This document shows, in pieces, positions 20,035-44,567 of a stretch of DNA of 64,000 nt. The stretch comes from Sulfuricurvum sp. GTDB lineage: Bacteria > Campylobacterota > Campylobacteria > Campylobacterales > Sulfurimonadaceae. The notes under the pieces were generated by a model. The model searched no databases and was not told where the DNA came from. It saw nothing but the letters and a program-made list of their open reading frames with translations. The number at the start of each line of letters is the position of its first letter. The first letter of the stretch is position 1. The position numbers and the translations under genes were made by a program. Location: NCBI GenBank assembly GCA_030696775.1, contig JAUYRN010000027.1, forward strand, positions 124,001 through 188,000, read 5' to 3'.

Positions 20035-22057
20035 GGGTAATCTCCAAACTTCCGCTTAGATCCAACACCGTATCAAAAGCAAAAACCAAAGCTAAACTTA
20101 CACCCTGAACACTCAAATCAAAGCCCTGCTCGCTTTGAGAAAGCGTTTGGAGTTGAAAATAGTGTACTTTACAGGGCTTATCGGTACGGATGATGATTTT
20201 TTTCTTTAAATACAGGTCTTCCATCTCAATCATCTGTGTCTCTTCAATCGTCCCTATCTGCGCTAAATCAACACCATTGATCCGAATCTTTTCATAATCT
20301 GCAAAGTGAAAATTGTGTTCCATCACATAGGTAAAGTCACCTTTGGCATCACTCTTTAGATGAAGAGAAAATTCGATTGCACTGGAAGCAAAGGTGAAAT
20401 TTTTCTCCAACCCAGCATTGGCTTTTTCGTCGTTGTAGATTCCCCCATCACGGGTAAAGGCAATACTGTTTTTAGTTTGGGAAGATTCAAAAGGCTGATT
20501 AGCAAAATCTCCATATTCCCGAAAATTGCAGTGACGAAAATTCTCTGCATTAAAACCAGTATCACTGATGTGATCGACAAAGGAGTTTTTCAAATACCAA
20601 TCATAAATAATTGCATCTCTTAACGTATCGTCAACTGCAACATTGGCATGATGGATCGTATCGATCCCCTCTTCAAACGGTACTGATTTTTCTTTTGGAG
20701 CTTCAAACAATTTAGCGTGATACGCTTCTTTTCTACGTGTCAGGGTATTTTGATAGTTAAAACAGCAGTCTCTCAAATCGAGTTCTACCAACTGTCCACC
20801 GCAAGATGAATCAAAACGGGAGATGAGCTTGGACGTCACCGATTTGTATTTTGCATGTCCGTCAAGTTCGTTGGAGTCACGAGTCAGAGCTTTCTTTTTC
20901 CCATAACGGATATTTTCGCACTCAATCAAATAACGATAGCCGTTGTCGCGTAGATTTGGGAGATACAGTCCTCCAAAAACACCATGCCAGAGCGAATCAT
21001 TCGTTTGAGCTTTATACAAAGCGGTCTCAAAATCCCCTTCACCCGCATGAAAGGCACGGGAAAGTTCCATCGTCCGCTTGTGCAAGCGATTGGATTCCGG
21101 GTATTTGACGAAGAAATTCTTCCAAATTCCCCCTTTGAGAAACTTCACGCCATACTCTTCATATCGCTGTAATCCCATTTCTTCTTTGAGCGCTTCAAGA
21201 TGCAGAGCATCATCCGCCCTTAGACTCCATTCCCCCATCTCGTAATACGAGACATTCGGCAAATAGGCAATCCCACGCGGACGATGGGCATCAAAATACT
21301 CACAGAAATGACGTGTCTGAATCGACTCATCGGCTAAGACGGCTTGAACAAACGATTCCAACCACCCTTTTTCATACACCCATTCATGCGTACCCGGCCA
21401 CATCCCGAATTTTTCGGCATCATCAAAGATAATCGCGGCTGAATCTTCTTCGCGGTTGTAAGATTTTATCGCTTTAATCGCACTCTCTACATTCAAAAAC
21501 GGAATGGCGTATCGAAGTTTTTGACTGATCGGAAACAGTCCCATAGGCGTTCCGCCCTCTTCACTCATGTAGTAGCCATCTAACCCCGTAGCATCAAAAC
21601 CAGCGCACTGAAAATGGTAATCGTCCATCACGGTATATTTTATCCCCGCACGATCAAGATCGGGGATCAGTGAGGATTCCCAAACCCGTTCGGTCAGCCA
21701 TAAACCTTTGGGTGTTTGACCAAAACGGGTGTGTATCGAATCGTTGAGGCGTTGGATTTGCCCTACTCGGTCAGGGGAGGGAATAACGCTCAAAATCGGT
21801 TCATAATACCCTGCACTAAAAAACTCGATGCTTCCGCTTTTTGCCAAGGAAACGATTTTTTGATAGAGTGACGGTCGTAACTCCTCGATCCGCTCCATCA
21901 GCCATCCGCTGCAATGAACGGAGAATTTAAAATCAGGATAGCGGCTCATCACCTCGAAAAAAGGTTCGTAGCAGGTTTTTATCCCCAGTTCGATTACCCA
22001 CTCGAGATTGTCCACCGGCTGGTGCATGTGGATACCCAATAGTAATGATGTTTTCAT
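20027..22057 (-). CDS. GH57 4-alpha-glucanotransferase-like enzyme
   Basis: The 676-residue protein starts with LLLGIHMHQPVDN and matches GH57 4-alpha-glucanotransferases of the Thermococcus litoralis type, with DUF1925/DUF1926-like C-terminal beta domains. The nucleophile is Glu123 in GLWLTERVWES, the same number as in the T. litoralis enzyme, and the acid/base Asp lies in AIIFDDAEKFGMWPGTHEW (about residue 212-213). It probably rearranges maltodextrins during glycogen synthesis or breakdown in the cytoplasm, since no signal peptide is present. It is separated from the upstream GH57 gene by 8 bp. Confidence 0.9.
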   Translation of the reverse strand: MKTSLLLGIHMHQPVDNLEWVIELGIKTCYEPFFEVMSRYPDFKFSVHCSGWLMERIEELRPSLYQKIVSLAKSGSIEFFSAGYYEPILSVIPSPDRVGQIQRLNDSIHTRFGQTPKGLWLTERVWESSLIPDLDRAGIKYTVMDDYHFQCAGFDATGLDGYYMSEEGGTPMGLFPISQKLRYAIPFLNVESAIKAIKSYNREEDSAAIIFDDAEKFGMWPGTHEWVYEKGWLESFVQAVLADESIQTRHFCEYFDAHRPRGIAYLPNVSYYEMGEWSLRADDALHLEALKEEMGLQRYEEYGVKFLKGGIWKNFFVKYPESNRLHKRTMELSRAFHAGEGDFETALYKAQTNDSLWHGVFGGLYLPNLRDNGYRYLIECENIRYGKKKALTRDSNELDGHAKYKSVTSKLISRFDSSCGGQLVELDLRDCCFNYQNTLTRRKEAYHAKLFEAPKEKSVPFEEGIDTIHHANVAVDDTLRDAIIYDWYLKNSFVDHISDTGFNAENFRHCNFREYGDFANQPFESSQTKNSIAFTRDGGIYNDEKANAGLEKNFTFASSAIEFSLHLKSDAKGDFTYVMEHNFHFADYEKIRINGVDLAQIGTIEETQMIEMEDLYLKKKIIIRTDKPCKVHYFQLQTLSQSEQGFDLSVQGVSLALVFAFDTVLDLSGSLEITRV

Positions 22058-22065
22058 TCTCTCTC

Positions 22066-24057
22066 CTATATAAACCAGTCGGTTGTAAAATAATTATTCA
22101 ATTCCAATAAAAGCGTTCCATTACCCGGCAGGGTTTGAAGGGCTTGGTTTTCTTCCATGAGTATCCAACGAAGGTGGACAACGGTGTTGCTTCCAAAATG
22201 AGCTCGTGCAAGTGAAAATTCCAAACGGTGATCAACTACGTCTGGTTTTAAAACCAGACGTTCTCCCGTCTCTTCTATCACCATCTCGATATACGTATAC
22301 AGTGAGAAAGGGCTTTTGCCTTCCAGGGCGATATAAACGGTTTGATTGTCCAATCCATAATAGATGGTATCGACAGGACCACGTAACCTGTCCATCGTTG
22401 AAAAGCTCTGCGTCTCATCGATCATGCCGCATCCGATCCATTCAAAAAAGCCTCTTTTCCCTCCACCTAACTGTGGAGAAATACTGTTTCGAGGCTTGAT
22501 CCACGAAGGTTTTACGACATTAAAAGAGTTAATCGGTTCCCTAAAATGAGAGGGAACTGTTTTTTCCATCAAACGATAGATCTCGATTAAATGGTCTCGA
22601 AACAAGGTGTCAAACTCAGATGAAAACTCCGTCACGTGATCTTCACCGTACCACCAAAACCAGTCACTGCACTGCGATGCCAGAAGATGATACCATATCG
22701 TTTCGGTGACTTCATGGGTTTGGGCATAGCGTTCTACCTCACGGCGTGTTTCAAAAATAAGTTCCCATGCCCGATTTTTTTCACGATGTCCTACCCACGT
22801 ATCAAAGGTCCCGTGTATCCAGCTGCCAGGAGCCAAGTGTTGTAACACCTCACTCTCATTTTTTTGCGACACCTCATCCATACTTGCGGTTTTACACCAT
22901 GTCGATGTGCTCAAAGCGCTATACAAAGAGGTAAAGAAATCCCATCCGTTATTCGGGTAAAACTCCCATGCATTCTCACCGTCAACAATCACAAAAACAT
23001 TCGGATTTTCTTCATGTGACGCGATACGATGCAGTTCATCCATAAAATGGCTGCTCGCCTTTTTTCCTTCCATATGACGATACTCAAATCCGATCAGATC
23101 ACTCAGACCATGGTCACGAAAAGCGATGGTCACATCCTCATAACGATAGGGTTTATAACGCAGAGATGACGCATCGTTGTGGAGCGATTTATGAAGTATC
23201 GCCTCGTCGGTCGCGATCCATGAAATTCCATGCTCTTTATAGATAGCAAGACTTTTTTCATCAACAGCTCCCTCCGCCGGCCAAAAACCGCTGGGCTTGG
23301 TTCCAAATGTCGCTTCATACAACTTGATGGAGCGCTCTACATGTTCAATCGCATCATCACGCAGTGAATATGCACCCTCTGGTAACTCTGTTGCGGGATT
23401 GGCACGCTGTCCATTTTCCATGTCGATTAATAAAGGAAGTATCGGGTGAAAATAAGGAGTAGTCGAAACCGATATGGTTCCCTCTTTTTGCAGTCTTCCG
23501 TAAAAAGGAAGTATCTCCGAAACAAAAAGGGATAACGTTTCCAGTAACGCCGTTTTGTCCTCATGAGTGTACCCTCGCTGTTTTATAAACAACGCTTTGA
23601 CCAAATCATTATGAAGACGAAGAGTATTTCCGCACCATGCGAGCAAAAATACCACTTCCAAATCGATCAGCTCATCATCACTAAAAAGTGTCTGCTCATA
23701 GAGCTCACAATAACGTGCTATGGGGTGAACCATAGTGTCATACTGCATCGCAGTACACAGTTTAATGAGCCACTCTTGTTGCGATTGGCTAAGCTTTGAG
23801 GGATGCTGTACCCACAGAGAAAGAAAATAATCGTATTTCAGCGGCTGTGTGTAGAGTTTGAGCTGTTCGATTAATGATGCACTGAGGTTGAACGTGGCTT
23901 TGAGCCCCGGATGCTGACTCATAAGCCACGGCATCTCATAATAATCTTTAATAGCGTGTAAAAACACCCATGGCATACTCATCACACCATCACTGCCCCT
24001 GTAATCAGGCTGATGCATGTGCCAAAAAAACGAAAGGCTAAGGCTTCGATCATTCAT
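22066..24057 (-). CDS. GH57 family glycoside hydrolase (alpha-amylase-like)
   Basis: From the ATG at 24057, which shares its A with the stop of the upstream gene (TGATG), the product has 663 residues. It opens SLSFFWHMHQPDYRG and contains a GH57 catalytic region: FWPAEGAVDEKSL with the likely nucleophile Glu, and VIVDGENAWEFYPNNG with the acid/base Asp. A C-terminal beta-rich part follows. The family includes alpha-amylases, amylopullulanases and glucanotransferases. In this operon it likely trims or debranches glycogen. A longer frame starting at 24186 would lie inside the upstream gene and lacks a ribosome site. Confidence 0.88.
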   Translation of the reverse strand: MNDRSLSLSFFWHMHQPDYRGSDGVMSMPWVFLHAIKDYYEMPWLMSQHPGLKATFNLSASLIEQLKLYTQPLKYDYFLSLWVQHPSKLSQSQQEWLIKLCTAMQYDTMVHPIARYCELYEQTLFSDDELIDLEVVFLLAWCGNTLRLHNDLVKALFIKQRGYTHEDKTALLETLSLFVSEILPFYGRLQKEGTISVSTTPYFHPILPLLIDMENGQRANPATELPEGAYSLRDDAIEHVERSIKLYEATFGTKPSGFWPAEGAVDEKSLAIYKEHGISWIATDEAILHKSLHNDASSLRYKPYRYEDVTIAFRDHGLSDLIGFEYRHMEGKKASSHFMDELHRIASHEENPNVFVIVDGENAWEFYPNNGWDFFTSLYSALSTSTWCKTASMDEVSQKNESEVLQHLAPGSWIHGTFDTWVGHREKNRAWELIFETRREVERYAQTHEVTETIWYHLLASQCSDWFWWYGEDHVTEFSSEFDTLFRDHLIEIYRLMEKTVPSHFREPINSFNVVKPSWIKPRNSISPQLGGGKRGFFEWIGCGMIDETQSFSTMDRLRGPVDTIYYGLDNQTVYIALEGKSPFSLYTYIEMVIEETGERLVLKPDVVDHRLEFSLARAHFGSNTVVHLRWILMEENQALQTLPGNGTLLLELNNYFTTDWFI

Positions 24058-26564
24058 CAAGGCTTCGACCACTCCTGTATTTTTTCCGTGTAGCGTTTGG
24101 TATACATCTCCCCTTTTTGATCGTCTGTTGCTTGGATCGTCAGATTGAGATAATCGCTGTATTGATCCGGAATCATTAATACCCAATCATCTTTGTCCAG
24201 CCAGATTTTCACCCCATCGAGTGTTGAAGATTCTTTATCTTTGGCATCTTCCAAAAATTTGCGCATCATTTTTCCCTTCAGGGACTGAGTACATGGAAGC
24301 TGAATCGTTGTATAGAAAAAATGAGGAAGTGAGTCAATAATTTCAGAAAGTTTCACACTGTGAGAAACCATCATCTCCAAAATTTTCAACGTCGCATACA
24401 TCGAATCTCTGTGCGTCGCAAATTCGGTAAAGGTAAAGTTCCCCTCCCCTGTAGCGACCAAGTCATAGCTTTTCATCTTAGAGGCTTTGAAATTCGCGTA
24501 TTGACCCCGCTCAATCTCGAGATGATCAAAATAGACAATGTCCGCGGCCCAGGTTGGTAAAAAGACTCGCTTTTTAACCCCGCTGGCTTTGGCCTCCATG
24601 TTCAAAAGACTCATGACAACATACAAGGCGCTTTGCTTGGAAAGAGGAAGCCCCTCATCGCACACAATATCCAACCGCTGACCATGAGGGTAGAGTATAA
24701 ATCCTCCATCAAGTTTGAGAGCTTTAATCACCGCCCCCATATCCTCATACGAGCGTTTCACCAATGTATTAATGTTCGAGAGACGCTGTTCGTCGCTATA
24801 AGCATTGAACATAATGTGTTCAACCCCAAGATCGTTCAAAATATCAGGGAAAACCTCAGCCGCCAAACCGTGCGTCAAATCGACGGCAATACGACAATCA
24901 AGACATTTAAACCGATGCGATTGCAAAACAGTCTCTATCCCTTTTTTGTATTCGGCATATTCACGCTTGTGATCGAGTTCGTGGATCTGTCCGATTTGGG
25001 AATAATCGACTCGACGAAAAGTTTCTTTGAAAAATGCTTTTTCTACCTTTTTTGCCACATCATTGTTGATACGAAGTGCTTCATGGTTGTAAAAAGTAAT
25101 GACAGTACTGGTGGGATCATCAATTTTTTGATGAAAATGAACCCCTGCCGTATAGTGCTCATGAAAGGAGAGACTGCAACGCATAACGGCTGAGGGGATA
25201 GCATTATAATCGACAACATCGACTCCCGAAGAGAGCAGACCGCCTAAAAATGCCCGCTTCAGCATACGTGAGCTTTTATCGTAGTGACGTGATACTAGCA
25301 CCGTCGAGCCCACAGGCAACTGCGCACCAAAAGATTCTGCTATCTTCGTCGCCATTTCGCATGAAAGTTCCACATTTGATTTTCCGATAACCATTCCGTT
25401 TTCAAAAATAGAATTTTTATATTTACTTCCCAGAATGACACTGCGGCTAACGATGGAAGCATCTTCAATCATTTTATACGGCCAAATGGTGACATCTTTT
25501 TCGATGGTGACGAGCTCACCGATTTCGCATCCCTCGGCTAAGATTAGTCCCGACTTAGCGGTAACATTTTTTCCGATACTGTTCCCGTCACAAATAACGC
25601 ACCCGTCTAGTTTGGCATTTTTTCCGATTTCAACATCATTCCAAATGACGGTATTGGCAATCTTCGAAGAAGAGCCGATAACAACATTATTTCCTATCAC
25701 AACATTGCTGAGCTTCGAACCGCGTTTAACCGTTACATTTTTACCGATTACAACGATTCCGATGACTTCAACACTCTCATCGAGAGTGTTGTCCTCTTCA
25801 CAAATGAGAACACCATCAGGATATTTAATGGCCTCTCCCCCAATGTTGAGTTTGATTTTACCGGCAAGTATGTCTTCATACACATCCCGATAACTCTCTG
25901 GATTGCCGACATCACGCCAGTATCCTTGGGCATAGCCTGCCATTAAATCGATTCCCTGACGCATCAAAAGAGGGAAAAGATCTTTGGCAAAATCAAAATT
26001 CTCATTTTTAGGAATGTAATCAAGAATCTCAGGCTCGATGATATAAATACCGGTATTGATGGTGTCGCTAAACACTTCTCCCCAGCTCGGTTTTTCGAGG
26101 AATTTTTCGATTTTCCCCTCTTCATTGGCAATGACCACCCCAAACTCGAGCGGATTTTCAACCGAGGTCAACGTTATGGTTAATTTAGAATTTTTTGATT
26201 TGTGATAGTCAAAAATCTGCTGAAAATCAAAATCGGTTACCAAATCACCGCTAATAATGATGAAGTTTTCATTACCAATGTAGTCCTGCGCTTTTTTAAC
26301 CGCACCTGCTGTCCCATAATCATCATCAGGGACAACGTAGGTGATGTTGATTCCCCAGGCACTTCCATCTTGGAAATAATCTTTGATGACATCGGGCTTA
26401 AAATAGAGTAATACAATAAATTCTTTAATGCCTAAATCTCGTAGGCTTACAATCGTATGTTCCATCATCGGACGGTTCATTATCGGTAACATGGGCTTTG
26501 GGACAGAATTCGTCAGGGGCTGTATTCGTGTTCCAAATCCGCCTGCCATAACAACAGCTTTCAT
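24057..26564 (-). CDS. Sugar nucleotidyltransferase fused to a degenerate phosphomannomutase domain
   Basis: The 835 residues comprise a nucleotidyltransferase (about 1-235; VVMAGGFGTRIQPLTNSVPKPMLPIMNRP, LYFKPDVIKDYF, IISGDLVTDFD), a left-handed hexapeptide helix (about 245-380) and a phosphomannomutase-like region (about 385-835). The mutase part lacks the phosphoserine loop (TASHNP replaced by HFHQKID) and the DGDGDR metal loop (replaced by YPHGQRL), so it is probably regulatory. Annotated homologues are often called mannose-1-phosphate guanylyltransferase. As the first gene of a glycogen operon without glgC, it may instead make ADP- or UDP-glucose. An AAAGGAG ribosome site precedes the ATG. 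Confidence 0.88.
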   Translation of the reverse strand: MKAVVMAGGFGTRIQPLTNSVPKPMLPIMNRPMMEHTIVSLRDLGIKEFIVLLYFKPDVIKDYFQDGSAWGINITYVVPDDDYGTAGAVKKAQDYIGNENFIIISGDLVTDFDFQQIFDYHKSKNSKLTITLTSVENPLEFGVVIANEEGKIEKFLEKPSWGEVFSDTINTGIYIIEPEILDYIPKNENFDFAKDLFPLLMRQGIDLMAGYAQGYWRDVGNPESYRDVYEDILAGKIKLNIGGEAIKYPDGVLICEEDNTLDESVEVIGIVVIGKNVTVKRGSKLSNVVIGNNVVIGSSSKIANTVIWNDVEIGKNAKLDGCVICDGNSIGKNVTAKSGLILAEGCEIGELVTIEKDVTIWPYKMIEDASIVSRSVILGSKYKNSIFENGMVIGKSNVELSCEMATKIAESFGAQLPVGSTVLVSRHYDKSSRMLKRAFLGGLLSSGVDVVDYNAIPSAVMRCSLSFHEHYTAGVHFHQKIDDPTSTVITFYNHEALRINNDVAKKVEKAFFKETFRRVDYSQIGQIHELDHKREYAEYKKGIETVLQSHRFKCLDCRIAVDLTHGLAAEVFPDILNDLGVEHIMFNAYSDEQRLSNINTLVKRSYEDMGAVIKALKLDGGFILYPHGQRLDIVCDEGLPLSKQSALYVVMSLLNMEAKASGVKKRVFLPTWAADIVYFDHLEIERGQYANFKASKMKSYDLVATGEGNFTFTEFATHRDSMYATLKILEMMVSHSVKLSEIIDSLPHFFYTTIQLPCTQSLKGKMMRKFLEDAKDKESSTLDGVKIWLDKDDWVLMIPDQYSDYLNLTIQATDDQKGEMYTKRYTEKIQEWSKP

Positions 26565-26804: not shown

Positions 26805-28268
26805 ATGAGTGGAATATCCAATTTATGCGACGTTATTATTTTCGGAGGGCATGGTGATTTAGCCTTTCGAAAGCTCATGCCTGCGTTGTATCATCTTTGT
26901 AATGACGGACATATTAACGAGCACAGCCGTATTTTTTCAACCACCCGTGCCAATATGACCCAAGAAGAGCATCTTGAACTGGTCAAAACAAAACTAAAAG
27001 AGTTTTTAGCTCAAGGGCAATTTGATGAGGCAAAATTTGAAAATTTTAAAGCACGGCTTCATCTGGTTAAAGTTGATTTGGGTAATGTTGAAAGTTACGA
27101 GGAGCTCAGCCATCTTCTTGGAGAAAATCCACAACGAGAACGAATCAGCTATCTCTCTACCTCTCCTGATTTTTTCGGAGCGATTTGTAAAGCATTAAGC
27201 ACATGGAGACTTGTCAGCCCTCAAAGCCGTGTCGTTTTGGAAAAACCGATCGGGCGGGATCTTGTCTCTTCGCGTGCCATCAATGTGGAAGTACTCAAAT
27301 ATTTCGAAGAGTCCCAAGTCTATCGTATCGACCACTATTTAGGAAAAGATACCGTTCAAAATATTATGGCGTTACGTTTTTCCAACCGAATCTTCACCCC
27401 TTTATGGGATGCGAGTAATATCGACCATGTCGAAATCACCGTCTCTGAGAGTGTCGGGGTTGAAGGGCGTTGGGGTTACTATGATGAATACGGTGCAATG
27501 CGCGACATGATTCAAAATCACCTGATGCAGCTACTGTGCCTCATCGCTATGGAACCTCCGTGTTCTTTGGATGCGGACAGTGTACGGGATGAAAAAGTAA
27601 AAGTACTCAAATCCCTGCGCCCTATGAGTGCTGCGGATATCCAGCAAAAAACCGTTCGCGCCCAATACACAAAAGGTTCCAGTAACGGGCAAATCGTCCC
27701 CGGATACAAAGAGGGTGAAGGGGTTGCGAACAGCACCACTGAAACCTATGCCGCTGTTCGTGTCGACATCGATAACTGGCGTTGGAACGGCGTGCCGTTT
27801 TATCTGCGAAGCGGTAAACGCCTGCGTAATAGAAACTCTGAAATCATTATTCAGTTCAAATCAATCCCCTACTCTATTTTTGCCAACAAAGGGAGCTGTA
27901 TTTCGCAAAACAAACTGGTCATCTCTTTGCAGCCAAGAGAGAGTATCCAGCTCAAACTCATGAATAAAATCCCTGGACTCAGTGAACAGATGCGTCTGCA
28001 ACAAGTCGATTTGGAACTCAATTCCCCGACCAATGAAGAACGAAAACCTGAAGCATACGAACGCCTGATGCTCGATGTTATCCGCAGTAATCCAACACTG
28101 TTTATGCGTCTGGATGAAGTGGAAGCGGCGTGGAAATGGGCAGATATCATTTTGCAAGGATGGGCAGAAAACATTGTTCCGATGAAAAGCTACAGTGCAG
28201 GAACGGATGGCCCAACAGCGGCAGTCGAACTGATCGCACGCGATGGCAGAAGCTGGCATGATGAATAA
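26805..28268 (+). CDS. zwf: Glucose-6-phosphate 1-dehydrogenase
   Basis: The 487-residue enzyme oxidises glucose-6-phosphate to 6-phosphogluconolactone with NAD(P)+. The N-terminal dinucleotide motif reads GGHGDLAFRKLMPAL instead of the usual GASGDL. The active site RIDHYLGKD, FSNRIFTPLWDASNIDHVEI, GRWGYYDEYGAMRDMIQNHLMQLL and FYLRSGKRL are intact. It is the first gene of an operon that reads zwf-pgl-edd-eda, i.e. the whole upper Entner-Doudoroff pathway. Its end overlaps pgl. Confidence 0.97.
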   Translation: MSGISNLCDVIIFGGHGDLAFRKLMPALYHLCNDGHINEHSRIFSTTRANMTQEEHLELVKTKLKEFLAQGQFDEAKFENFKARLHLVKVDLGNVESYEELSHLLGENPQRERISYLSTSPDFFGAICKALSTWRLVSPQSRVVLEKPIGRDLVSSRAINVEVLKYFEESQVYRIDHYLGKDTVQNIMALRFSNRIFTPLWDASNIDHVEITVSESVGVEGRWGYYDEYGAMRDMIQNHLMQLLCLIAMEPPCSLDADSVRDEKVKVLKSLRPMSAADIQQKTVRAQYTKGSSNGQIVPGYKEGEGVANSTTETYAAVRVDIDNWRWNGVPFYLRSGKRLRNRNSEIIIQFKSIPYSIFANKGSCISQNKLVISLQPRESIQLKLMNKIPGLSEQMRLQQVDLELNSPTNEERKPEAYERLMLDVIRSNPTLFMRLDEVEAAWKWADIILQGWAENIVPMKSYSAGTDGPTAAVELIARDGRSWHDE

Positions 28269-28941
28269 TCTACATTTTCACCGTTTTGAGGATGAAGAGA
28301 AGCTTGCTTTTTCTCTTGCTCAAAACATTGGGAATCACCTCAACGAAGCCATCGCCGAAAAAGGGTCTGCTTCTCTCCTAGTTTCAGGAGGAAGCACCCC
28401 TAAAAAGCTTTTTAAAGCTCTAAGTTCGATGAACATCGAGTGGGATAAAATTAAAATCGGTCTGTGTGATGAACGCCTCGTTAAACCCACCCATAACGAC
28501 AGCAATGAAAAACTGGTTCGAGAAACACTCATGACAGGTTACGCCGCAAAAGCAACGTTTATTGATATGGCAAGCGAAAATGAGACTGCGTGTTCTGTGC
28601 GCGTTAAAGAGTTACTTATGCCCTTTGATGTTCTCGTTTTAGGGATGGGTGATGACGCGCATACTGCTTCGCTTTTCCCCAACAATCCAAGACTTGCTGA
28701 AGCGTATGACCAAACAAAAGAAAATGTCTGTATTAAGATTGTCCCGCAACATGCCCCTCATACGCGCATGAGTCTCACACTGGGAGCCATTTTAAGCGCT
28801 CACCATGTCTATCTTCATTTTCAAGGTGTGAGCAAACTGAATGTTTACAAAGAAGCACTAAACGGGACAGATACATTCACCATGCCCATTCGTGCTATCA
28901 TCAACCAAACGGATAAAAAAATTGAGGTATACAGCGCATGA
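28258..28941 (+). CDS. pgl: 6-phosphogluconolactonase
   Basis: A product of about 227 residues of the DevB/SOL family that hydrolyses 6-phosphogluconolactone. Motifs are LLVSGGSTPKKLFKAL, IGLCDERLVKPTHNDSNEKLVRE, LGMGDDAHTASLFPNN and HTRMSLTLGAIL. The ATG at 28258 overlaps the zwf stop by 11 bases and is favoured over the in-frame ATG at 28243, which lies further inside zwf and has no ribosome site. The ATG at 28261 is a third possibility. It overlaps edd by four bases. Confidence 0.94.
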   Translation: MMNNLHFHRFEDEEKLAFSLAQNIGNHLNEAIAEKGSASLLVSGGSTPKKLFKALSSMNIEWDKIKIGLCDERLVKPTHNDSNEKLVRETLMTGYAAKATFIDMASENETACSVRVKELLMPFDVLVLGMGDDAHTASLFPNNPRLAEAYDQTKENVCIKIVPQHAPHTRMSLTLGAILSAHHVYLHFQGVSKLNVYKEALNGTDTFTMPIRAIINQTDKKIEVYSA

Positions 28942-30767
28942 ATGACATACTCCTCCGGGTTACTAAAAACATACAAGAACGCTCGCGTATCAGCAGAGAA
29001 CATTATCTCCAACGAATCAACGAAGCAAAAACACATGGTGTAAACCGACAAAAACTCGGATGCAGTAATCTCGCTCACGCGATGGCACCTATGGATGAGC
29101 ACGAAAAAGCGTCACTTTCCGCACTCATAAGCCCCAATATCGCCATTGTCACGGCGTATAATGATATGCTATCCGCTCATGAACCCTATAAACTCTATCC
29201 TGCCCTCATCAAACGAACCCTCAGTGATATGGGCGCTACGTGTCAGGTAGCGGGAGGAGTCCCTGCCATGTGTGACGGAGTGACTCAATCGCAAAGCGGA
29301 ATGGAGTTAAGCCTCTTTAGCCGTGACAACATCGCCATGGGAACCGCCATCGCCCTCTCGCATAATGTCTATGATGGGGCTGTCTATCTGGGCGTATGCG
29401 ATAAAATCGTTCCGGGTCTGGTCATCGGAGCGTTGGCGTTTGGACATCTTCCAGGGCTTTTTATCCCGGCAGGTCCCATGCCATCAGGAATCAGCAATGC
29501 TGAAAAAGGCAAAATCCGACAAGAGTATGCCAAGGGTAACGTCACCGAAGCCGAGCTTTTAAAAGCTGAAGCTGCTTCCTATCACAGCAGTGGAACGTGC
29601 ACGTTTTACGGTACCGCAAACTCCAATCAAATGCTCTTGGAGATGATGGGTCTGCAGCTTCCCAACAGTTCGTTTGTCAATACTAATACCCCATTGCGAG
29701 AAGCACTCACCATCCAAGCATCTCAAACCATTTTCGGACTCACCGAAACTTCAGGTAACTATCTCCCCATAGCGGACATCATCGATGAACGCAGTTTTGT
29801 CAATGCGATTGTAGGACTCATGGCAACCGGCGGATCGACCAATCATACGATCCACCTCATCGCCATGGCACGCGCTGCAGGGATACTTCTGACATGGGAT
29901 GATTTTGATGCACTCTCAAAAATCACCCCCCTTCTGTGCCGTATGTATCCTAACGGAAGTGCTGATGTCAACGCATTTCGAGACGCAGGCGGGATGTCTG
30001 TCGTCATCCATCAGCTCCTGAATGCAGGGCTAGCGCATAACGATGTCCAAACCATTATGGGCAAAGGGCTTGATCGCTATATCGTTGAACCCGTCTTACG
30101 CGATAATAAATTTTGTTATGAATCCGGAGCTAAGATCTCGCGCGATACTTCGGTCATTTCCAGCATAGAGACTCCTTTCAGCCACGAAGGGGGACTTAAA
30201 CTGCTTCGCGGAAATATCGGTCGAAGTATCATCAAAACCTCAGCTCTCAAAGATCCTGATACCATCATCGAAGCCGAAGCAATTATTTTTGATTCTCAAG
30301 AAGCATTGCAAAGTGCCTTTAAACGAGGCGAATTGGAGAGAGACTTTATCGCCGTTGTCCGATTCCAAGGTCCACGCGCCAACGGTATGCCTGAACTTCA
30401 CGGTCTTATGCCTCCGCTTGGCGTGCTTCAAGAGCGTGGATTCAATGTCGCAATCGTGACTGATGGTCGAATGTCGGGTGCATCGGGAAAAGTCCCCTCA
30501 GCAATCCATATTTCCCCCGAAGCTTCTGATGGAGGAGTATTGGCAAAACTCCAAAACGGTGATAGAATCCGATTTGATGTCAAAGCCGGGGAAGTCACCG
30601 TATTGGTAGAGGATGCGATATTATCCGCACGTGCGATTTATACTCCCGATTTGAGCCACAACCGATACGGTTTTGGGCGAGAGCTGTTTGTCTCTGTTCG
30701 AGCCAGTGTTTCAAGCGCTGAAGAGGGTGCGAGCATTTTTGATATTACAGGTAAGGAACGCGCATGA
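28938..30767 (+). CDS. edd: Phosphogluconate dehydratase
   Basis: The 609-residue IlvD/Edd-family enzyme dehydrates 6-phosphogluconate to 2-keto-3-deoxy-6-phosphogluconate and carries an iron-sulfur cluster. Visible features are AIVTAYNDMLSAHEPY, the cluster Cys region AGGVPAMCDGVTQ, YLGVCDKIVPGL, SSGTCTFYGTANSNQML, MATGGSTNHTIHL and VTDGRMSGASGKVPSAIH. The length matches Edd of E. coli. The start overlaps pgl and the end overlaps eda by four bases each, so the three are translationally coupled. Confidence 0.97.
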   Translation: MNDILLRVTKNIQERSRISREHYLQRINEAKTHGVNRQKLGCSNLAHAMAPMDEHEKASLSALISPNIAIVTAYNDMLSAHEPYKLYPALIKRTLSDMGATCQVAGGVPAMCDGVTQSQSGMELSLFSRDNIAMGTAIALSHNVYDGAVYLGVCDKIVPGLVIGALAFGHLPGLFIPAGPMPSGISNAEKGKIRQEYAKGNVTEAELLKAEAASYHSSGTCTFYGTANSNQMLLEMMGLQLPNSSFVNTNTPLREALTIQASQTIFGLTETSGNYLPIADIIDERSFVNAIVGLMATGGSTNHTIHLIAMARAAGILLTWDDFDALSKITPLLCRMYPNGSADVNAFRDAGGMSVVIHQLLNAGLAHNDVQTIMGKGLDRYIVEPVLRDNKFCYESGAKISRDTSVISSIETPFSHEGGLKLLRGNIGRSIIKTSALKDPDTIIEAEAIIFDSQEALQSAFKRGELERDFIAVVRFQGPRANGMPELHGLMPPLGVLQERGFNVAIVTDGRMSGASGKVPSAIHISPEASDGGVLAKLQNGDRIRFDVKAGEVTVLVEDAILSARAIYTPDLSHNRYGFGRELFVSVRASVSSAEEGASIFDITGKERA

Positions 30768-31387
30768 ACGCTTATGATGTTATGAAACTATCCCCCATTG
30801 TCCCCGTTATCGCGATTGAGGATGCTGAGGATGCCTTACCGCTTGCCCAAGCATTGCTTGCAGGGGGAATCGGTCTTATGGAAATCACGCTACGAACTCC
30901 TGCCGGGATCAAAGCAATCGAGATCATTGCCAAAAACTTACCTCAAATGGCAGTAGGTGCAGGAACCGTCCTCAATGCGGATGATTTTAAAAGAGCAGTC
31001 GATCACGGTGCGCAGTTTGTCTTTAGCCCCGGTATCAGTCTCGAACTAATGGAGATATCAAAGTCACTCAACATCCCCTTTATTCCGGGAGTAGCTACTG
31101 CATCGGAAGTGATGCTGGCTTTAAACAACGGCTTTGAATATTGTAAACTTTTTCCCGCCACTGCCGTAGGAGGGATTGAAACACTTAATGGTTTTTACGG
31201 TCCGTTTCCCTCTATGCGTTTTTGTCCAACGGGAGGGATAAATCTGCACAATCTCAACGATTTTCTAAAACTCCCCAATGTCCTCTGTGCCGGAGGAAGC
31301 TGGATTGTCCCAAAAATGGCACTTAAAAACAAAGAATTTAGTTCAATAACCAAATTGTGCCACGAAGCACTTATCGACATAGATTAA
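30764..31387 (+). CDS. eda: KDPG aldolase
   Basis: A 207-residue class I aldolase that splits 2-keto-3-deoxy-6-phosphogluconate into pyruvate and glyceraldehyde-3-phosphate. The Schiff-base lysine is in GFEYCKLFPATAVGG, the catalytic Glu in LMEITLRTPAG, and the phosphate site in FCPTGGINLHN. With zwf, pgl and edd immediately upstream, this completes the Entner-Doudoroff route. The next gene follows after 22 bp. Confidence 0.97.
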   Translation: MNAYDVMKLSPIVPVIAIEDAEDALPLAQALLAGGIGLMEITLRTPAGIKAIEIIAKNLPQMAVGAGTVLNADDFKRAVDHGAQFVFSPGISLELMEISKSLNIPFIPGVATASEVMLALNNGFEYCKLFPATAVGGIETLNGFYGPFPSMRFCPTGGINLHNLNDFLKLPNVLCAGGSWIVPKMALKNKEFSSITKLCHEALIDID

Positions 31388-31409: not shown

Positions 31410-34385
31410 ATGAATTTGGATCATATCAACGCGTTACTCGAAAAACACTACAGCTCTATTGATAAAATCATTCTCTCCCGCCAAGATCCCATCACCGGTC
31501 TCTTGCCCGCCAGTACCGCTATAACAGCTCATGGTGATTATACCGATGCGTGGGTACGGGATAACGTTTACAGTATCCTTTGTGTCTGGGGACTTGCCCT
31601 TGCGTACAAAAAACATAATCCTGATCATTATCGAAACTACCTCTTGGGCCAAAGTGTGGTCAAGCTGATGCGCGGACTTTTAGAGGCGATGATGCGCCAA
31701 GCCAATCGTGTCGAAACCTTCAAAAAAACGCTCAACCCTACCGATGCCCTCCATGCCAAATACGGGACAGCCACTGCATTAGCGGTTGTCGGTGATGATG
31801 AGTGGGGGCATTTGCAGTTGGACGCCACTTCCTTATATCTGTTAATGAGTGCACAGATGATTGCATCGGGATTGCAGCTGATCTATACGATCGATGAGGT
31901 TGATTTCGTTCAAAATCTTGTTCACTATATCAGCCACACCTACTGCACCGCCGATTATGGGATTTGGGAACGAGGCAATAAAATCAATCACGGGACAACC
32001 GAGATCAATTGCAGTTCTGTCGGGATGGCAAAAGCGGCACTGGAAGCACTCAATGGCTTTAATCTGTTTGGAAACGTCATGAGCAAAGAAGCCATTATCC
32101 ATGTCATCCCAAGCGACATTGCCCGCTCACGCTTTACTCTCCACGGATTACTGCCAAGAGAATCGAACTCCAAAGAAACCGATGCAGCATTGCTAAGCAT
32201 CATCGGATATCCCGCTTACGCGATCGAAGATGAAGCGCTTGTAGAGCGTACACGAACTAAAATCCTTAAAAAACTCGGTGGTCGTTATGGATGCAAACGC
32301 TTTCTTCTCGATGGACATCAAAGCAGCATAGAAGATCCTTCCCGATTGCACTACGAGCCCTCTGAATTGCGTGAGTTTGAACACATCGAATCCGAATGGC
32401 CCCTCTTTTTTACCTATCTCTTACTCGATGCGCTGATACGCCAAGACCATGAGGGGGTGCGTCACTGGAGAGAGAAGCTCGAACCACTTTTTGTCGATCA
32501 AGAAGGAAAACAACTGCTTCCAGAACTCTATCTCGTCCCCAAAGAGTCTATCGAAGCCGAAAAAGAACATCCAAATTCTCAAACCCGCGTCCCCAACGAA
32601 AACATACCCCTCGTCTGGGCACAAAGTCTTTTTATTCTCAGCGATATGATAATGGATGACCTCATCACACCGCAGGATATTGATCCTCTTTCACGCAGAG
32701 AACGTATCGGATTTAAACGCTCTATCCATCCTCTCGTCTGTGCCCTTGCAGAAAATGAATCTGTCAAACAGCGTCTCCTTGAGCATGGTATCCACAGTGA
32801 GACTCTCGAAGAACTGTATCCCATCAAGGTGATGCACGCGTCACAACTTTCTAAAATCCATACTCTTTTAGGGAAAAATGAAAAATTAGGATTAAGCGGA
32901 CGTCCGTACGTTGCAGCAAGAACCATTACCACTGCACGACTGCATCTTTTGATGGATCAGGAAATCATTTTTCTCCCCTATTATTTTAATCCTAAAGGGT
33001 TTTATTTTAGTTATGACACCACTCTTTTAGTGAAGCGTTTTCGATCATCCTTGAAATTTCTCTCTACCCACTGGGACCAGCAGGCTCAACCGATATTGCC
33101 GTTTCTGATCCGTGAAGACATGCTAGAAAGCCCTCAAAAAGAGGTGATTTTAGAGCTTCTCCATGAGCTTGAAAATAACTCTTGCAATTCTATAACCATT
33201 ACTAAAGCCCCGCTGCGCGAGCTTTTAAAAACTGCCAGTGTTGAACAAATCGATAATATCAACCCATTGGACCTCAACGCACTGGAACTTCATTCTCTCA
33301 ATCACAGCCATACTGCCGTTACCTCAGAAACCGACTATGAATCGGCAGCTCTCAATCAAGATTGGGCCAGTGTCCGTCGAATCGCTGAAGCCATGGGTAA
33401 ATACGACGACCGACTGGAAGATGTTCTGCTGGATATTATCATTCACCAAAAACATTTAGCCGTTGGTCGAGCCTACAGTGAACGTGCTACCTTTTCAAAG
33501 CCGTTAAAAAATACGAGTATTGTCACGATTATTCGAGAATCATGCGGGAACAATGCTGCAGAAAGTGTTTTGACTCAAGAAGTGATGATCCATCTCGGAG
33601 CACTTATCCAAGCAGAACCGGAACTTTTTAACAACATGATTACGCTGCGCACATGGTATTTCGTCCAACTCTTAGTCGGTCATATCAGCCGTGAGAATAA
33701 TCTTCCCATAGGAGATTCCTACGAATACCTGTTAGGGTTGTCTCCCCATGAGATCTACGAGCGAATCCGAGCGATTTTGAAGTCATTTTCTCAAGAAGTC
33801 ACTCAATTCAATCACCAAGAAAATCTTAATGCGTCAGGAATGCCCGTAGTTAATTCCATCTCTATCGATGTTTCGACTCCACCCGCTCAGCAAAGTGATA
33901 ATTGGGAACAGTGGCGTCAACATGAAGGGATGATCAGCAGACTGACTCAAAAATTTTATAAAAATGTCTGGTATCTGTTACGCCAATGCAATGGTCTCGT
34001 TATAGGCGACAAATACAACCTGCACAGCCGCATAGGAAGTGAACTTACCTTGGACTCAACCGCAGGAGAACAAAGCTTCGCCCACAAAATTGAAGATCTC
34101 CTACAAAGCATTGAAGCACCTGAATATCGCCAGCTCAATATCGAAGCGATTGAAAGCCTCTCAAATCTCTTTAAACACTCGCCGCAACTGCATGTTGATG
34201 ATGATTTGGTCTTGGATGTACTTATCGGGCATGCGGTGCGAATCGGATGGAAACACTATCATCCTTATGAAGAAAATTATGATGAAGTACGCGCTCAGGC
34301 ATGGGATAGGATGTACCAGTGCTCACCCGAAAAAACGGCGGAGCTCTTTGTTGAAGCGCTTATCTATTTATTAGCTCCACAGTAA
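31410..34385 (+). CDS. Phosphorylase b kinase regulatory alpha/beta-like protein (GH15-related)
   Basis: The 991-residue protein starts with an (alpha/alpha)-barrel of the glucoamylase (GH15)-like type. The N-terminal 400 residues follow eukaryotic phosphorylase kinase alpha subunits closely: DAWVRDNVYSILCVWGLALAYKK (46-68), WGHLQLDATSLYLL (132-145), then DYGIWERGNKINHGTTEINCSSVGMAKAALEAL (182-214), RYGCKRFLLDG and LHYEPSELREFEHIE...WPLFFTYLL. The C-terminal half is helical with no calmodulin-binding call possible by eye. It may bind or hydrolyse glucans and regulate the linked glycogen enzymes. It lies between eda and glk in the same operon. Enzymatic activity is unproven. Confidence 0.88.
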   Translation: MNLDHINALLEKHYSSIDKIILSRQDPITGLLPASTAITAHGDYTDAWVRDNVYSILCVWGLALAYKKHNPDHYRNYLLGQSVVKLMRGLLEAMMRQANRVETFKKTLNPTDALHAKYGTATALAVVGDDEWGHLQLDATSLYLLMSAQMIASGLQLIYTIDEVDFVQNLVHYISHTYCTADYGIWERGNKINHGTTEINCSSVGMAKAALEALNGFNLFGNVMSKEAIIHVIPSDIARSRFTLHGLLPRESNSKETDAALLSIIGYPAYAIEDEALVERTRTKILKKLGGRYGCKRFLLDGHQSSIEDPSRLHYEPSELREFEHIESEWPLFFTYLLLDALIRQDHEGVRHWREKLEPLFVDQEGKQLLPELYLVPKESIEAEKEHPNSQTRVPNENIPLVWAQSLFILSDMIMDDLITPQDIDPLSRRERIGFKRSIHPLVCALAENESVKQRLLEHGIHSETLEELYPIKVMHASQLSKIHTLLGKNEKLGLSGRPYVAARTITTARLHLLMDQEIIFLPYYFNPKGFYFSYDTTLLVKRFRSSLKFLSTHWDQQAQPILPFLIREDMLESPQKEVILELLHELENNSCNSITITKAPLRELLKTASVEQIDNINPLDLNALELHSLNHSHTAVTSETDYESAALNQDWASVRRIAEAMGKYDDRLEDVLLDIIIHQKHLAVGRAYSERATFSKPLKNTSIVTIIRESCGNNAAESVLTQEVMIHLGALIQAEPELFNNMITLRTWYFVQLLVGHISRENNLPIGDSYEYLLGLSPHEIYERIRAILKSFSQEVTQFNHQENLNASGMPVVNSISIDVSTPPAQQSDNWEQWRQHEGMISRLTQKFYKNVWYLLRQCNGLVIGDKYNLHSRIGSELTLDSTAGEQSFAHKIEDLLQSIEAPEYRQLNIEAIESLSNLFKHSPQLHVDDDLVLDVLIGHAVRIGWKHYHPYEENYDEVRAQAWDRMYQCSPEKTAELFVEALIYLLAPQ

Positions 34386-34396
34386 AAGGAAAAAAG

Positions 34397-35419
34397 ATGA
34401 TACTAGCCGGCGATATAGGAGGGACAAAAACGATTTTGGCCCTCTTTGAGATTCATGAAAATACGCTAAAACTTCACTCCAAGCAGCAGTTTGCGAGTAA
34501 AGATTATGATAGTTTTAACGATGTACTGTTGGAATTTATCCGATTAAATACTAATCCTGCGATTGACGCGGCATGTTTTGGCATAGCAGGACCGATCATC
34601 GATGAAAAATGTCATACTACCAACCTCCCATGGGAAATCGCCACAACGGAGCTTAGAACACTCCTTAACACCTCTCATGTTCGTCTTTTAAATGATCTTG
34701 AAGCCACCGCTTACGGAATGCTCTATCTGAATGAAGATGAATTTGTTGATCTAAACCCTGATGCACCAGTATCCCATGGCAATCGTGCTGTTATCGCTGC
34801 AGGTACAGGTTTAGGTGAGGCAATGCTCTTTTTTGACGGAACGTCGTATCACCCGAGTGGTTCAGAGGGAGGACATTGTGACTTCGCCCCTTTAACCTCG
34901 CAGCAAGATTCCCTTTTGCAGTGGTTGAGACAGCGATTCAGCGATCATGTAAGCTATGAGCGTATTTTATCCGGTCCGGGGATTGCAACCTTGTACGACT
35001 TTTTGCTTGAGAGTAATTTTGCCCCTCCTCCGCATCAGATGACCAATCTAAGCGAAACCGATGATCGAAGTGCCCGTATCAGTCAATGCGCACTGGAGAA
35101 CCATGATCCGCTATGCATCGAAACACTTCGTTTATTTACCGAAATATACGGCGCTGAAGCTGGAAATTTAGCCCTAAAATCAATGTCGCTTGGAGGAGTT
35201 TACATCGGTGGTGGTATCGCCCCTAAGATTTTACCTTTTATTCAAACCGACATTTTCATGAACGCATTTACAGCAAAAGGACGATTTGAGCCAATGCTTC
35301 GAAAGATGAGAGTCAAGGTCTCTTTAAATCCCGAAACAGCTCTTTTGGGAGCTGCCTATTTTGCACAGGATCAACTTAGCGTTCGAAGAGGCACTTTATC
35401 ACTTTATGCAAGGCCCTAG
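34397..35419 (+). CDS. glk: Glucokinase
   Basis: The 340-residue protein is a Glk-family (not ROK) glucokinase: ATP-binding LAGDIGGTKTILALFE, then CFGIAGPI, LLNDLEATAYG, IAAGTGLGEAML, SEGGHCDFAP and GGVYIGGGIAPKI. It phosphorylates free glucose to glucose-6-phosphate, so glucose released by the GH57/GH15-type activities of this locus can enter the Entner-Doudoroff route. It ends the plus-strand operon, 11 bp after the phosphorylase-kinase-like gene, with AAAGGAAAAAAG as ribosome site. Confidence 0.95.
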   Translation: MILAGDIGGTKTILALFEIHENTLKLHSKQQFASKDYDSFNDVLLEFIRLNTNPAIDAACFGIAGPIIDEKCHTTNLPWEIATTELRTLLNTSHVRLLNDLEATAYGMLYLNEDEFVDLNPDAPVSHGNRAVIAAGTGLGEAMLFFDGTSYHPSGSEGGHCDFAPLTSQQDSLLQWLRQRFSDHVSYERILSGPGIATLYDFLLESNFAPPPHQMTNLSETDDRSARISQCALENHDPLCIETLRLFTEIYGAEAGNLALKSMSLGGVYIGGGIAPKILPFIQTDIFMNAFTAKGRFEPMLRKMRVKVSLNPETALLGAAYFAQDQLSVRRGTLSLYARP

Positions 35420-37881: not shown

Positions 37882-39774
37882 TTATGGTTGAGTAATCGCA
37901 TTACTTTGTAAGGTAACAGCTGTTTGAGCTAACAATCGAGCATTTGCTGATGCGCCCGTAAGAACTGCAATGTTTGTTTTGGCTAATATTATTCCCTCAA
38001 AATGAGAGTTAGTACCCAGTGTCACAGCACCCGCTACTTGCCAAAAGATATTTTTAGCTTGAGCACCACCGGTTAGGATAATATGATTTGAATTCAAATC
38101 GAGTTTATTTCCAATCTGGAAAATCCAAACGTCATTCACTCCGCCATTCAAAGTAAGATCAGTAGTGATAGTCACATCTCCGCCCCATGTATACGTACCA
38201 GGAGTCAGAGTTTCACCGGCAAGCGTTCCAGCACCACGATTCAAATTAGTCACCCCAACTCCGGCAGCTCTTCCAGCAGCCGCATTGTATGCGATTTCCA
38301 TATCTCCGATTGCTGTTGTCATATAAGTAGGAGTAGGAGGTATCATGTCAGCTGCATAGATTTTTCCAGTAACGAGGGGTGATGTTGCATAGGTAGCACC
38401 AGCAGTCAATGTTCCAAATCCGGTGATATAGCTTGTAGCCACAGGACTAACCCCGATATCGCCAACAATTGCAGATCCTACGGTTGTAGAAACTCCTGCT
38501 TTAGTTAAAATCGCAAAATTTCCTGCTGTTCCTAAATCAATCGGAATCGGACCTGCACCTTCTGTAACAGTAACATTGTATGGCGTTGTGGTTGAATCCG
38601 CCGCAGTAACGGTATAAATGACCGTATTGGTAAAATCATTTAACGTTGCACCGCTTGTTTGAACTACATTTCCTACTTTTACGTTGGTACCTGTTGTTGT
38701 AAACGTTGCCGTACGCGCTGTTTTATCTGTCCCAGGAAGTACACTCACGGTTATCGTTTTTAATGATTCACTAATAACTCCTACAGAATCCGGTTGTCCC
38801 GCAAAGGTATAAGCCGTAATTGCTTTAGCAGAGTTTGCCGCTACAGCTACGGTTACAGTATATGTTGCAGTTGAGCCATCACCTGCAGTTACAATATAAG
38901 CAACTGGTGCTGTAAAATTATTGGCCGTTGCAGTGCTTGTTTGAGTTTTTGTTCCGACTTTTACTGTTGTACCCGTACTTGTAAATGTTGCAACCAGTGC
39001 CGTAACATTTGTACCATTGGGTACAGTTACCGCAATGGTTTTTGCCGTTTCATTGATAACTCCTGAAGCTCCGGTATATCCAGAAAAGGAATATGCAGTA
39101 ATCGCTTTAGCTGTGTTTGAAGCAACGGTTACCGTTACAGTATAGGTCGCCGTTGATGCATCACCTGCGGTTACAATGTAAGCAACCGGATTAGTAAAGT
39201 TATTCGGAGTTACACCGCTTGTTTGAGTCGTAGTACCCACTTTAACACTTCCAGTAGACGTAAATGTTGCGACAAGAGCCGTAACGTTTGTCCCATAAGG
39301 TACCGCTACCGCAATAGTTTTTGCCGGTTCATTAATGACACCTGCTACACCTGCAAGAAAATACGTCGTCATGCTCTTATCTGTAGCAGATGCGACCGTT
39401 ACGGTTACAGTATACGTAGCCGTTGTTCCATTTCCTGCGGTCACTATATAAGAAACGGGAGCGGTAAAGTTATTTGGAGTTGTACCGCTTGTTTGAGATA
39501 TTGTTCCTACTTTTACGCTCGCGCCCTCGGTGGTATAAGTTGCCACTAATTTCGTAATATCTGTTCCATTAGGTACAGTTACTGCAATCGTTTTTGTTGC
39601 TTCATCAATAATACCTGTTGATCCTGCAAGGGAGTAGTTACTAATAAGCGTAGAAGAAGACGTACTGGAAACAGGATTTGCACTTCCGCTACTGCTGCAT
39701 CCACTGATAAATGTATTCATTACTAGTGCAGTAATGATAGCGATTGGATTAAAATATTTTCTGAAAATTGACAT
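37882..39774 (-). CDS. Lipoprotein with four beta repeats and an ice-binding (DUF3494) domain
   Basis: The 630-residue protein has a lipoprotein signal (lipobox ISGC, Cys26) and a Ser-rich linker. Four tandem repeats of about 85-90 residues follow (about 43-400), each with GVINE-TAKTIAVTVPNGTN, LVATFTSTG, VKVGT, TPNNFT and PVAYIVTAGD-ATYTVTV. The C-terminal about 210 residues resemble the DUF3494 ice-binding-like beta helix: GTAGNFAILTKAG, VVGDIGVSP-like, TPGTYTWGGDVTI, VWIFQIG, NIFWQVAGAVTLG. Such proteins bind ice or act as surface adhesins. It is preceded by AAAGGAA. The repeats are Thr-rich, typical of secreted adhesins. Confidence 0.82.
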   Translation of the reverse strand: MSIFRKYFNPIAIITALVMNTFISGCSSSGSANPVSSTSSSTLISNYSLAGSTGIIDEATKTIAVTVPNGTDITKLVATYTTEGASVKVGTISQTSGTTPNNFTAPVSYIVTAGNGTTATYTVTVTVASATDKSMTTYFLAGVAGVINEPAKTIAVAVPYGTNVTALVATFTSTGSVKVGTTTQTSGVTPNNFTNPVAYIVTAGDASTATYTVTVTVASNTAKAITAYSFSGYTGASGVINETAKTIAVTVPNGTNVTALVATFTSTGTTVKVGTKTQTSTATANNFTAPVAYIVTAGDGSTATYTVTVAVAANSAKAITAYTFAGQPDSVGVISESLKTITVSVLPGTDKTARTATFTTTGTNVKVGNVVQTSGATLNDFTNTVIYTVTAADSTTTPYNVTVTEGAGPIPIDLGTAGNFAILTKAGVSTTVGSAIVGDIGVSPVATSYITGFGTLTAGATYATSPLVTGKIYAADMIPPTPTYMTTAIGDMEIAYNAAAGRAAGVGVTNLNRGAGTLAGETLTPGTYTWGGDVTITTDLTLNGGVNDVWIFQIGNKLDLNSNHIILTGGAQAKNIFWQVAGAVTLGTNSHFEGIILAKTNIAVLTGASANARLLAQTAVTLQSNAITQP

Positions 39775-44385: not shown

Positions 44386-44567
44386 GCGTTAAATCCTTTG
44401 GTTAAATGAAACAAAATATAATCATTATTTGAAAATTTTTACCATCATAGCCACATTTTTAATATTTAACATTTATAGTTATCTTTATTAGTAATAGTTA
44501 GAATTTTAAGTTTTAAATTTATTTTAAGTATTATAATTTGTTTTTAGTGGTAATAAAAAGGATAAAT

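Follow-up and report, generated by a model that had tools for sequence, protein, structure and literature searches.

The gene at positions 31410–34385 (plus strand) of a 64,000-nucleotide stretch of Sulfuricurvum DNA (hereafter the window, meaning the whole of that stretch) encodes an intact protein of 991 amino acids, beginning with ATG, that is a true homologue of human phosphorylase kinase (PhK) alpha and beta subunits over its whole length. This protein is probably an active cytoplasmic exo-alpha-glucosidase of the GH15 type, built on the PhK alpha/beta architecture, that would convert glycogen or maltodextrins into glucose for glucokinase and the Entner-Doudoroff (ED) pathway. A glucoamylase-like function was among those proposed in an earlier reading made from the letters of the DNA (the sequence-only reading), and it appears to be the best reading of the residues and neighbours described below.

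The window protein is a full-length homologue of PhK alpha and beta

Pfam detects a GH15 domain at residues 14–748 (3.6e-76; 257.2 bits, cut-off 22) and, at residues 762–989 (33693–34376, plus strand), a KPBB_C domain, the C-terminal part specific to PhK alpha/beta (1.7e-79; 266.8 bits, cut-off 27). When the protein was compared by phmmer with all PDB sequences, human PhK alpha (665 bits, 1.4e-198) and PhK beta (557 bits, 6.3e-166) were recovered, and the other four matches were at chance level (E 0.5 or worse). A profile search against the PDB sequences returned no plain GH15 enzyme, even with the threshold at E 10. The C-terminal 449 residues alone recovered PhK beta (2.7e-29) and PhK alpha (4.4e-28) from the same sequences. 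The motif likeness to PhK alpha that had first drawn attention to this gene is genuine: WGHLQLDATSLYLL corresponds to human WGHLQLDATSVYLL, DYGIWERG to DFGIWERG, and SSVGMAKAALEAL is identical in both. Likeness to alpha in particular is nevertheless unsupported, because a single bacterial chain faces both paralogues, keeping the alpha-type Glu pair while many of its relatives keep a beta-type ADP site. The KPBB_C half matches as well, which excludes a resemblance confined to the general GH15 fold.

The comparison of a predicted structure with PhK alpha and beta, proposed in the sequence-only reading, was carried out on a full-length AlphaFold2 model based on 52 bacterial sequences (pLDDT 85, pTM 0.83), which matches the full PhK architecture. 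Foldseek placed eight PhK alpha/beta chains at the top ranks, and VIA-align superimposed the model on PhK alpha (8jfk_A) with a Z score of 50.6 (781 residues, 2.8 Å) and on PhK beta with a Z score of 44.5 (778 residues, 3.1 Å); the best plain GH15 enzyme reached Z 28.8 and covered the N-terminal domain, D1, only. This GH15-type domain comprises residues 8–447 (31431–32750, plus strand). The D1-only model (pLDDT 90.1, pTM 0.92) aligned with PhK alpha D1 at Z 56.0 (52% identity, 1.8 Å over 433 residues), with the GH15 glycosidase 5z3d at Z 33.5 and with the bacterial glucoamylase 1lf6 at Z 30.6. A point against an active enzyme is that the acid loop (residues 185–196) falls below pLDDT 50 in the full-length model, though the D1-only model has no stretch below this value. 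These model comparisons indicate a PhK architecture for the whole protein and a glucoamylase fold for D1.

The window protein can thus be assigned to GH15 by its Pfam domain, the glucoamylase fold of its model, its two catalytic Glu residues and its RD motif, and to the KPBB_C/PhK alpha-beta superfamily by its C-terminal domain and the full-length fold of its model, with the D3 bundle mostly deleted. It shares the D1 fold and the catalytic motif positions with GH15 glucoamylases, glucodextranase and related glycosidases (5z3a-e, 1lf6, 1ug9, 1gai); these enzymes show 13–18% identity to D1 in structural alignments and, unlike the window protein, have no PhK-type C-terminal half.

A stretch of some 60 residues that most homologues possess, making up the greater part of the D3 helical bundle, is missing from the window protein (at 33267–33353, residues ~620–648) and from its closest relatives. 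The same stretch is absent from a Sulfurovum protein on a different branch (locus L007). D3 therefore seems to be dispensable and to have been lost more than once.

A complete GH15 active site is invariant in bacterial homologues

The D1 domain of the window protein contains an RD motif (R50-D51), a general acid (E187) and a general base (E372), so that inspection of the GH15 catalytic Glu positions, another check proposed at the outset, found both present. The base is followed by a loop, N396-x-N398-x-P400-L401-x-W403. We compared 110 bacterial homologues, from Campylobacterota, Gammaproteobacteria and Cyanobacteria with one Deinococcota and one Bacteroidota MAG. Glu occupies the positions of both E187 and E372 in 110/110, the loop is likewise kept in 110/110, and the RD motif, W132, N396, N398, P400, L401, W403 and Q405 are invariant. 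Canonical GH15 sequences align with these proteins at the RD motif, at WE and at the base; judging from this alignment and from its place beside the base, the loop probably lines the pocket.

In contrast, the human subunits depart from this pattern. Human alpha (PHKA; PDB 8jfk, 8z5r) resembles the window protein in its full-length homology, both catalytic Glu and the RD motif, and differs from it in reading M, K, P, H and W at N396, N398, P400, L401 and W403, N396, N398 and L401 being replaced. Human beta (PHKB), also homologous over its full length, has S, G, L, F and W at these positions, a lysine in place of the catalytic base, Q at R50 and N at D138. The bacterial proteins thus hold a complete active-site set that has decayed to different degrees in the two human subunits.

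Glu185 and Glu371 of human PhK alpha have been named as catalytic, yet alpha has no measurable hydrolase activity, and PhK is reported to hydrolyse neither maltose, isomaltose nor glycogen (PMC10978961). The Glu pair by itself is therefore no proof of activity, and the bacterial protein could likewise be a non-catalytic glucan sensor or scaffold whose D1 would bind glycogen ends uncut and which would regulate phosphorylase or another glycogen enzyme. Retention of the full PhK-specific C-terminal half and the very strong conservation of D1 as a whole, including its dimer helix, would fit such a role. We consider it unlikely, because the complete active-site set is invariant in bacteria, including loop residues lost by both human subunits, which indicates selection for catalysis; moreover, the conserved neighbour of the gene is glucokinase, not phosphorylase.

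The gene belongs to an Entner-Doudoroff operon next to a glycogen cluster

The PhK-like gene is the fifth of a plus-strand operon, zwf-pgl-edd-eda-PhK-like-glk, whose genes are spaced, in this order, by -26, -4, -4, +22 and +11 bp. The operon encodes glucose-6-phosphate dehydrogenase (zwf, 26805–28268), 6-phosphogluconolactonase (pgl, 28243–28941), phosphogluconate dehydratase (edd, 28938–30767), KDPG aldolase (eda, 30764–31387) and glucokinase (glk, 34397–35419). The adjacency to glucokinase seen in the sequence-only reading is therefore confirmed, glk lying 11 bp downstream on the same strand.

A divergent cluster of glycogen genes occupies the minus strand. It comprises a nucleotidyltransferase fused to a phosphohexomutase (24057–26564), two GH57 proteins (20027–24186), of which that at 20027–22057 has alpha-amylase/4-alpha-glucanotransferase domains, a GalT-like protein, two GT5 glycogen-synthase genes (16144–17613 and 17601–19040), the branching enzyme GlgB (14213–16147), Pgi, and a short alpha-glucan phosphorylase of the TIGR02094 type (549 aa, 11313–12962). 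The last is the glycogen phosphorylase correctly described as lying on the opposite strand, about 18 kb from the PhK-like gene. Judged by nearest homologues, the host genome (2.55 Mb, Campylobacterota) stands near Sulfuricurvum-type MAGs. It has one GH15 gene, the PhK-like gene, and the gene at 11313–12962 is the sole phosphorylase-family gene found in it. GlgB is the only GH13 protein found in the genome, in which neither GlgX nor a GH13-type pullulanase was detected.

The short phosphorylase matches TIGR02094 in two stretches and, weakly, a GT5 synthase model. The top NCBIfam scores of the nucleotidyltransferase/phosphohexomutase fusion are to mannose-1-phosphate guanylyltransferase-like models, not to canonical GlgC; as the fusion adjoins two GT5 genes and a GalT-like protein, it is uncertain which sugar nucleotide serves as the donor for glycogen. 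Further along, a large protein (37882–39774, minus strand) carries a C-terminal ice-binding domain, and a 440-residue protein (44538–45860, plus strand) combines a phosphatidylserine decarboxylase-like C-terminal half with a long N-terminal extension.

These neighbours suggest the following pathway. The D1 pocket would bind cellular glycogen, or maltodextrins, at non-reducing ends, and glucose would be cleaved off by an inverting mechanism of the glucoamylase type, with E187 as acid and E372 as base. The released glucose would be phosphorylated by the co-transcribed glucokinase and enter the ED pathway encoded just upstream. D2–D5 would form a structural, probably regulatory scaffold. An enzyme producing free glucose explains the linkage to glk directly, since phosphorolysis would need no glucokinase. 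Inspection of the N-terminus revealed no signal-like sequence. Legionella pneumophila offers an analogy of function, not based on sequence: its glucoamylase GamA degrades glycogen and the organism has a zwf-pgl-edd-glk-eda operon (PMC4158876). GamA, however, has been discussed with secreted, host-directed activities, whereas the window protein has no visible signal peptide.

Family GH15 extends to trehalases and dextran-acting enzymes, and the sequence does not fix the substrate. An active GH15 enzyme with another specificity, either a trehalase or an alpha-1,6-, alpha-1,2- or alpha-1,3-glucosidase that might remove branch stubs in this genome, is an improbable alternative. The sole NCBIfam match of the protein is to the archaeal GH15 trehalase TreH1, but it is weak, its score of 21.7 bits falling far short of the cut-off of 820. 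A debranching role would suit a genome in which neither GlgX nor a GH13 pullulanase was found, while the cluster includes a GH57 protein with 4-alpha-glucanotransferase domains; a GH57 enzyme could, however, debranch as well, and Marinomonas has glgX beside its PhK-like copy, so that debranching is not the family-wide role.

Linkage and distribution of the family in bacteria

Wherever a Campylobacterota locus extends past the PhK-like gene (28/28), the gene that comes next is glucokinase in the same orientation, and the same holds for 6 gammaproteobacterial loci, mainly of Halothiobacillaceae. In Saccharospirillum the PhK-like gene ends the ED operon (zwf-pgl-edd-glk-eda-PhK-like), with malQ next in locus L065. 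In the Marinomonas group glgB is the next gene in 13 loci, and the one scanned (L058) reads PhK-like-glgB-glgX. All these loci are related and were retrieved with the window's own peptides, so that the counts are not independent. Against the proposed role, the gene does not adjoin glycogen or glk genes in most cyanobacteria, in Cellvibrionaceae and in Paraglaciecola.

The family is already present in Pfam, which joins its bacterial and eukaryotic proteins, and the window protein is not unique. The family's distribution is patchy in Campylobacterota, Gammaproteobacteria and Cyanobacteria: in a whole-genome sample, PhK-like proteins were found in 6/298 Campylobacterota, in 15/369 genomes of the class of Marinomonas and, over the cut-off, in 46/194 cyanobacteria. 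KPBB_C also gives a match in the genome of Synechococcus elongatus. One copy per genome was present in the 14/14 genomes checked. All 6 Campylobacterota with a PhK-like gene are among the 44/298 that have a strong GT5 glycogen-synthase match, an overlap with a probability of ~8e-6 under random draw (calculated by hand, kinship ignored). Our literature search found no paper on the function of any bacterial member, and bacterial homologues may have been mentioned earlier. Three cyanobacteria with genomes of 2.3–3.0 Mb (loci L136, L137 and L138) form a long-branch clade (1.1–1.3 changes/site) in which all catalytic residues and the RYRR set described below are kept.

No conserved kinase partner

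As stated in the sequence-only reading, no kinase catalytic gene adjoins the PhK-like gene in the window. The genome has two Ser/Thr kinases, both unlinked and multi-domain (an LRR-kinase and a PP2C-kinase fusion), and no dedicated gamma subunit was found in it. Human PhK alpha has features of its own, namely long inserts, the gamma-contact residues K588 and Y593 and a CaaX farnesylation end. In the window protein K588 and Y593 are replaced by E and S, and no bacterial sequence of the set has a cysteine at position -4. The features expected of a subunit of the PhK holoenzyme, a linked or dedicated gamma kinase, gamma contacts and a CaaX end, are therefore all lacking here.

One locus departs from this picture. 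In Aliterella atlantica (L041) a Ser/Thr protein kinase gene (11401–12798, plus strand) lies directly downstream of the PhK-like gene on the same strand, and the gene is present in many cyanobacteria, which raises the idea of a proto-phosphorylase-kinase, a bacterial protein already regulating a Ser/Thr kinase. This adjacency is not conserved: among the other 31 cyanobacterial loci a kinase is adjacent in none and within the flanks in two (3/32 in total), and the neighbours in three of them are an alanine dehydrogenase, a histidine kinase and an amidohydrolase. Together with the missing gamma contacts and CaaX end, this makes us reject the idea as very improbable.

Phylogeny and the relation to eukaryotic PhK

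In the phylogeny with PhK that the sequence-only reading had proposed, human alpha groups with beta as its sister (98/99, D1 tree), but their attachment among bacteria is not placed. The PHKA+PHKB group joins cyanobacteria weakly in the D1 tree (85/76) and lies at the midpoint root in the D1–D2 tree; the AU test does not reject a monophyletic bacterial group (p-AU 0.33). Rooting with canonical GH15 outgroups was attempted and is unreliable, because the outgroup branches measure 4–10 changes/site. The sequences from Campylobacterota fall into a single clade nested within those of Gammaproteobacteria (94; 87/94). A transfer from Gammaproteobacteria to Campylobacterota was considered and is not retained, since an alternative without nesting is not rejected (p-AU 0.16).

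The patchy distribution and the placement of PhK without confidence would also suit a reverse transfer, in which a PhK subunit passed from eukaryotes to bacteria, where the family would then be secondary. This scenario is hardly credible: the bacterial family spans at least three phyla, is deeply divergent and occurs in a quarter of sampled cyanobacteria. Furthermore, both human subunits show decay at active-site residues that do not vary among the bacterial proteins, so that a catalytically dead donor would have had to regain them.

The beta subunit of human PhK holds ADP by R211, Y213, R214 and R274 (PMC10978961). At the corresponding positions 51/110 bacterial proteins read RYRR, among them every one of the 32 from cyanobacteria and those of Saccharospirillaceae and Marinomonas. 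The residues are mostly RYCR in Campylobacterota, HYCR in the window protein and AYKH in human alpha. Human alpha and beta differ at 220 columns of D1, and at 46/220 the residue of the bacterial majority is that of beta; against this background, the match to beta at each of the three informative ADP positions (~1%; four named contacts; post hoc test) is suggestive without being proof. We do not claim ADP regulation for the window protein itself, whose site is eroded to HYCR. The helix that makes the pseudo-symmetric alpha1/beta1 contact in human PhK (alpha 68–94) is strongly conserved in bacteria, consistent with a bacterial homodimer; the window protein would probably form a homo-oligomer through this D1 helix.

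Discussion

It is possible, though we hold this only tentatively, that the bacterial family represents the undivided ancestor type of PhK alpha and beta. It would be a homo-oligomeric enzyme that trims glycogen and responds to nucleotides, combining a working hydrolase site (decayed in both subunits, the Glu pair surviving in alpha only) with an allosteric nucleotide site (retained by beta and missing from alpha). The suggestion that an ancestral function was later recruited by eukaryotes fits the active-site decay in both human subunits; the part of it that would derive PhK from among bacteria finds no support in the tree (AU p 0.33). If the ancestor-type scheme is true, PhK arose by duplication and a sharing-out of parts, one product being a glucan sensor without catalysis and the other an ADP sensor. 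On the main reading, the window protein offers a present-day model for the possible state of PhK alpha/beta before they took on kinase regulation.

The 2024 cryo-EM study of PhK described an alpha active site that is apparently intact and without activity, and left open the purpose of the glucoamylase-like domains (PMC10978961). The bacterial relatives, with every pocket residue, provide a residue-by-residue hypothesis of loss for the animal subunits and, in a glucose-consuming operon, an easily assayed protein. The window protein is an ordinary member of a family that is, as far as we found, functionally uncharacterised, and its proposed role is a testable hypothesis that points to a little-noticed route from glycogen to glucose in Campylobacterota and perhaps in cyanobacteria.
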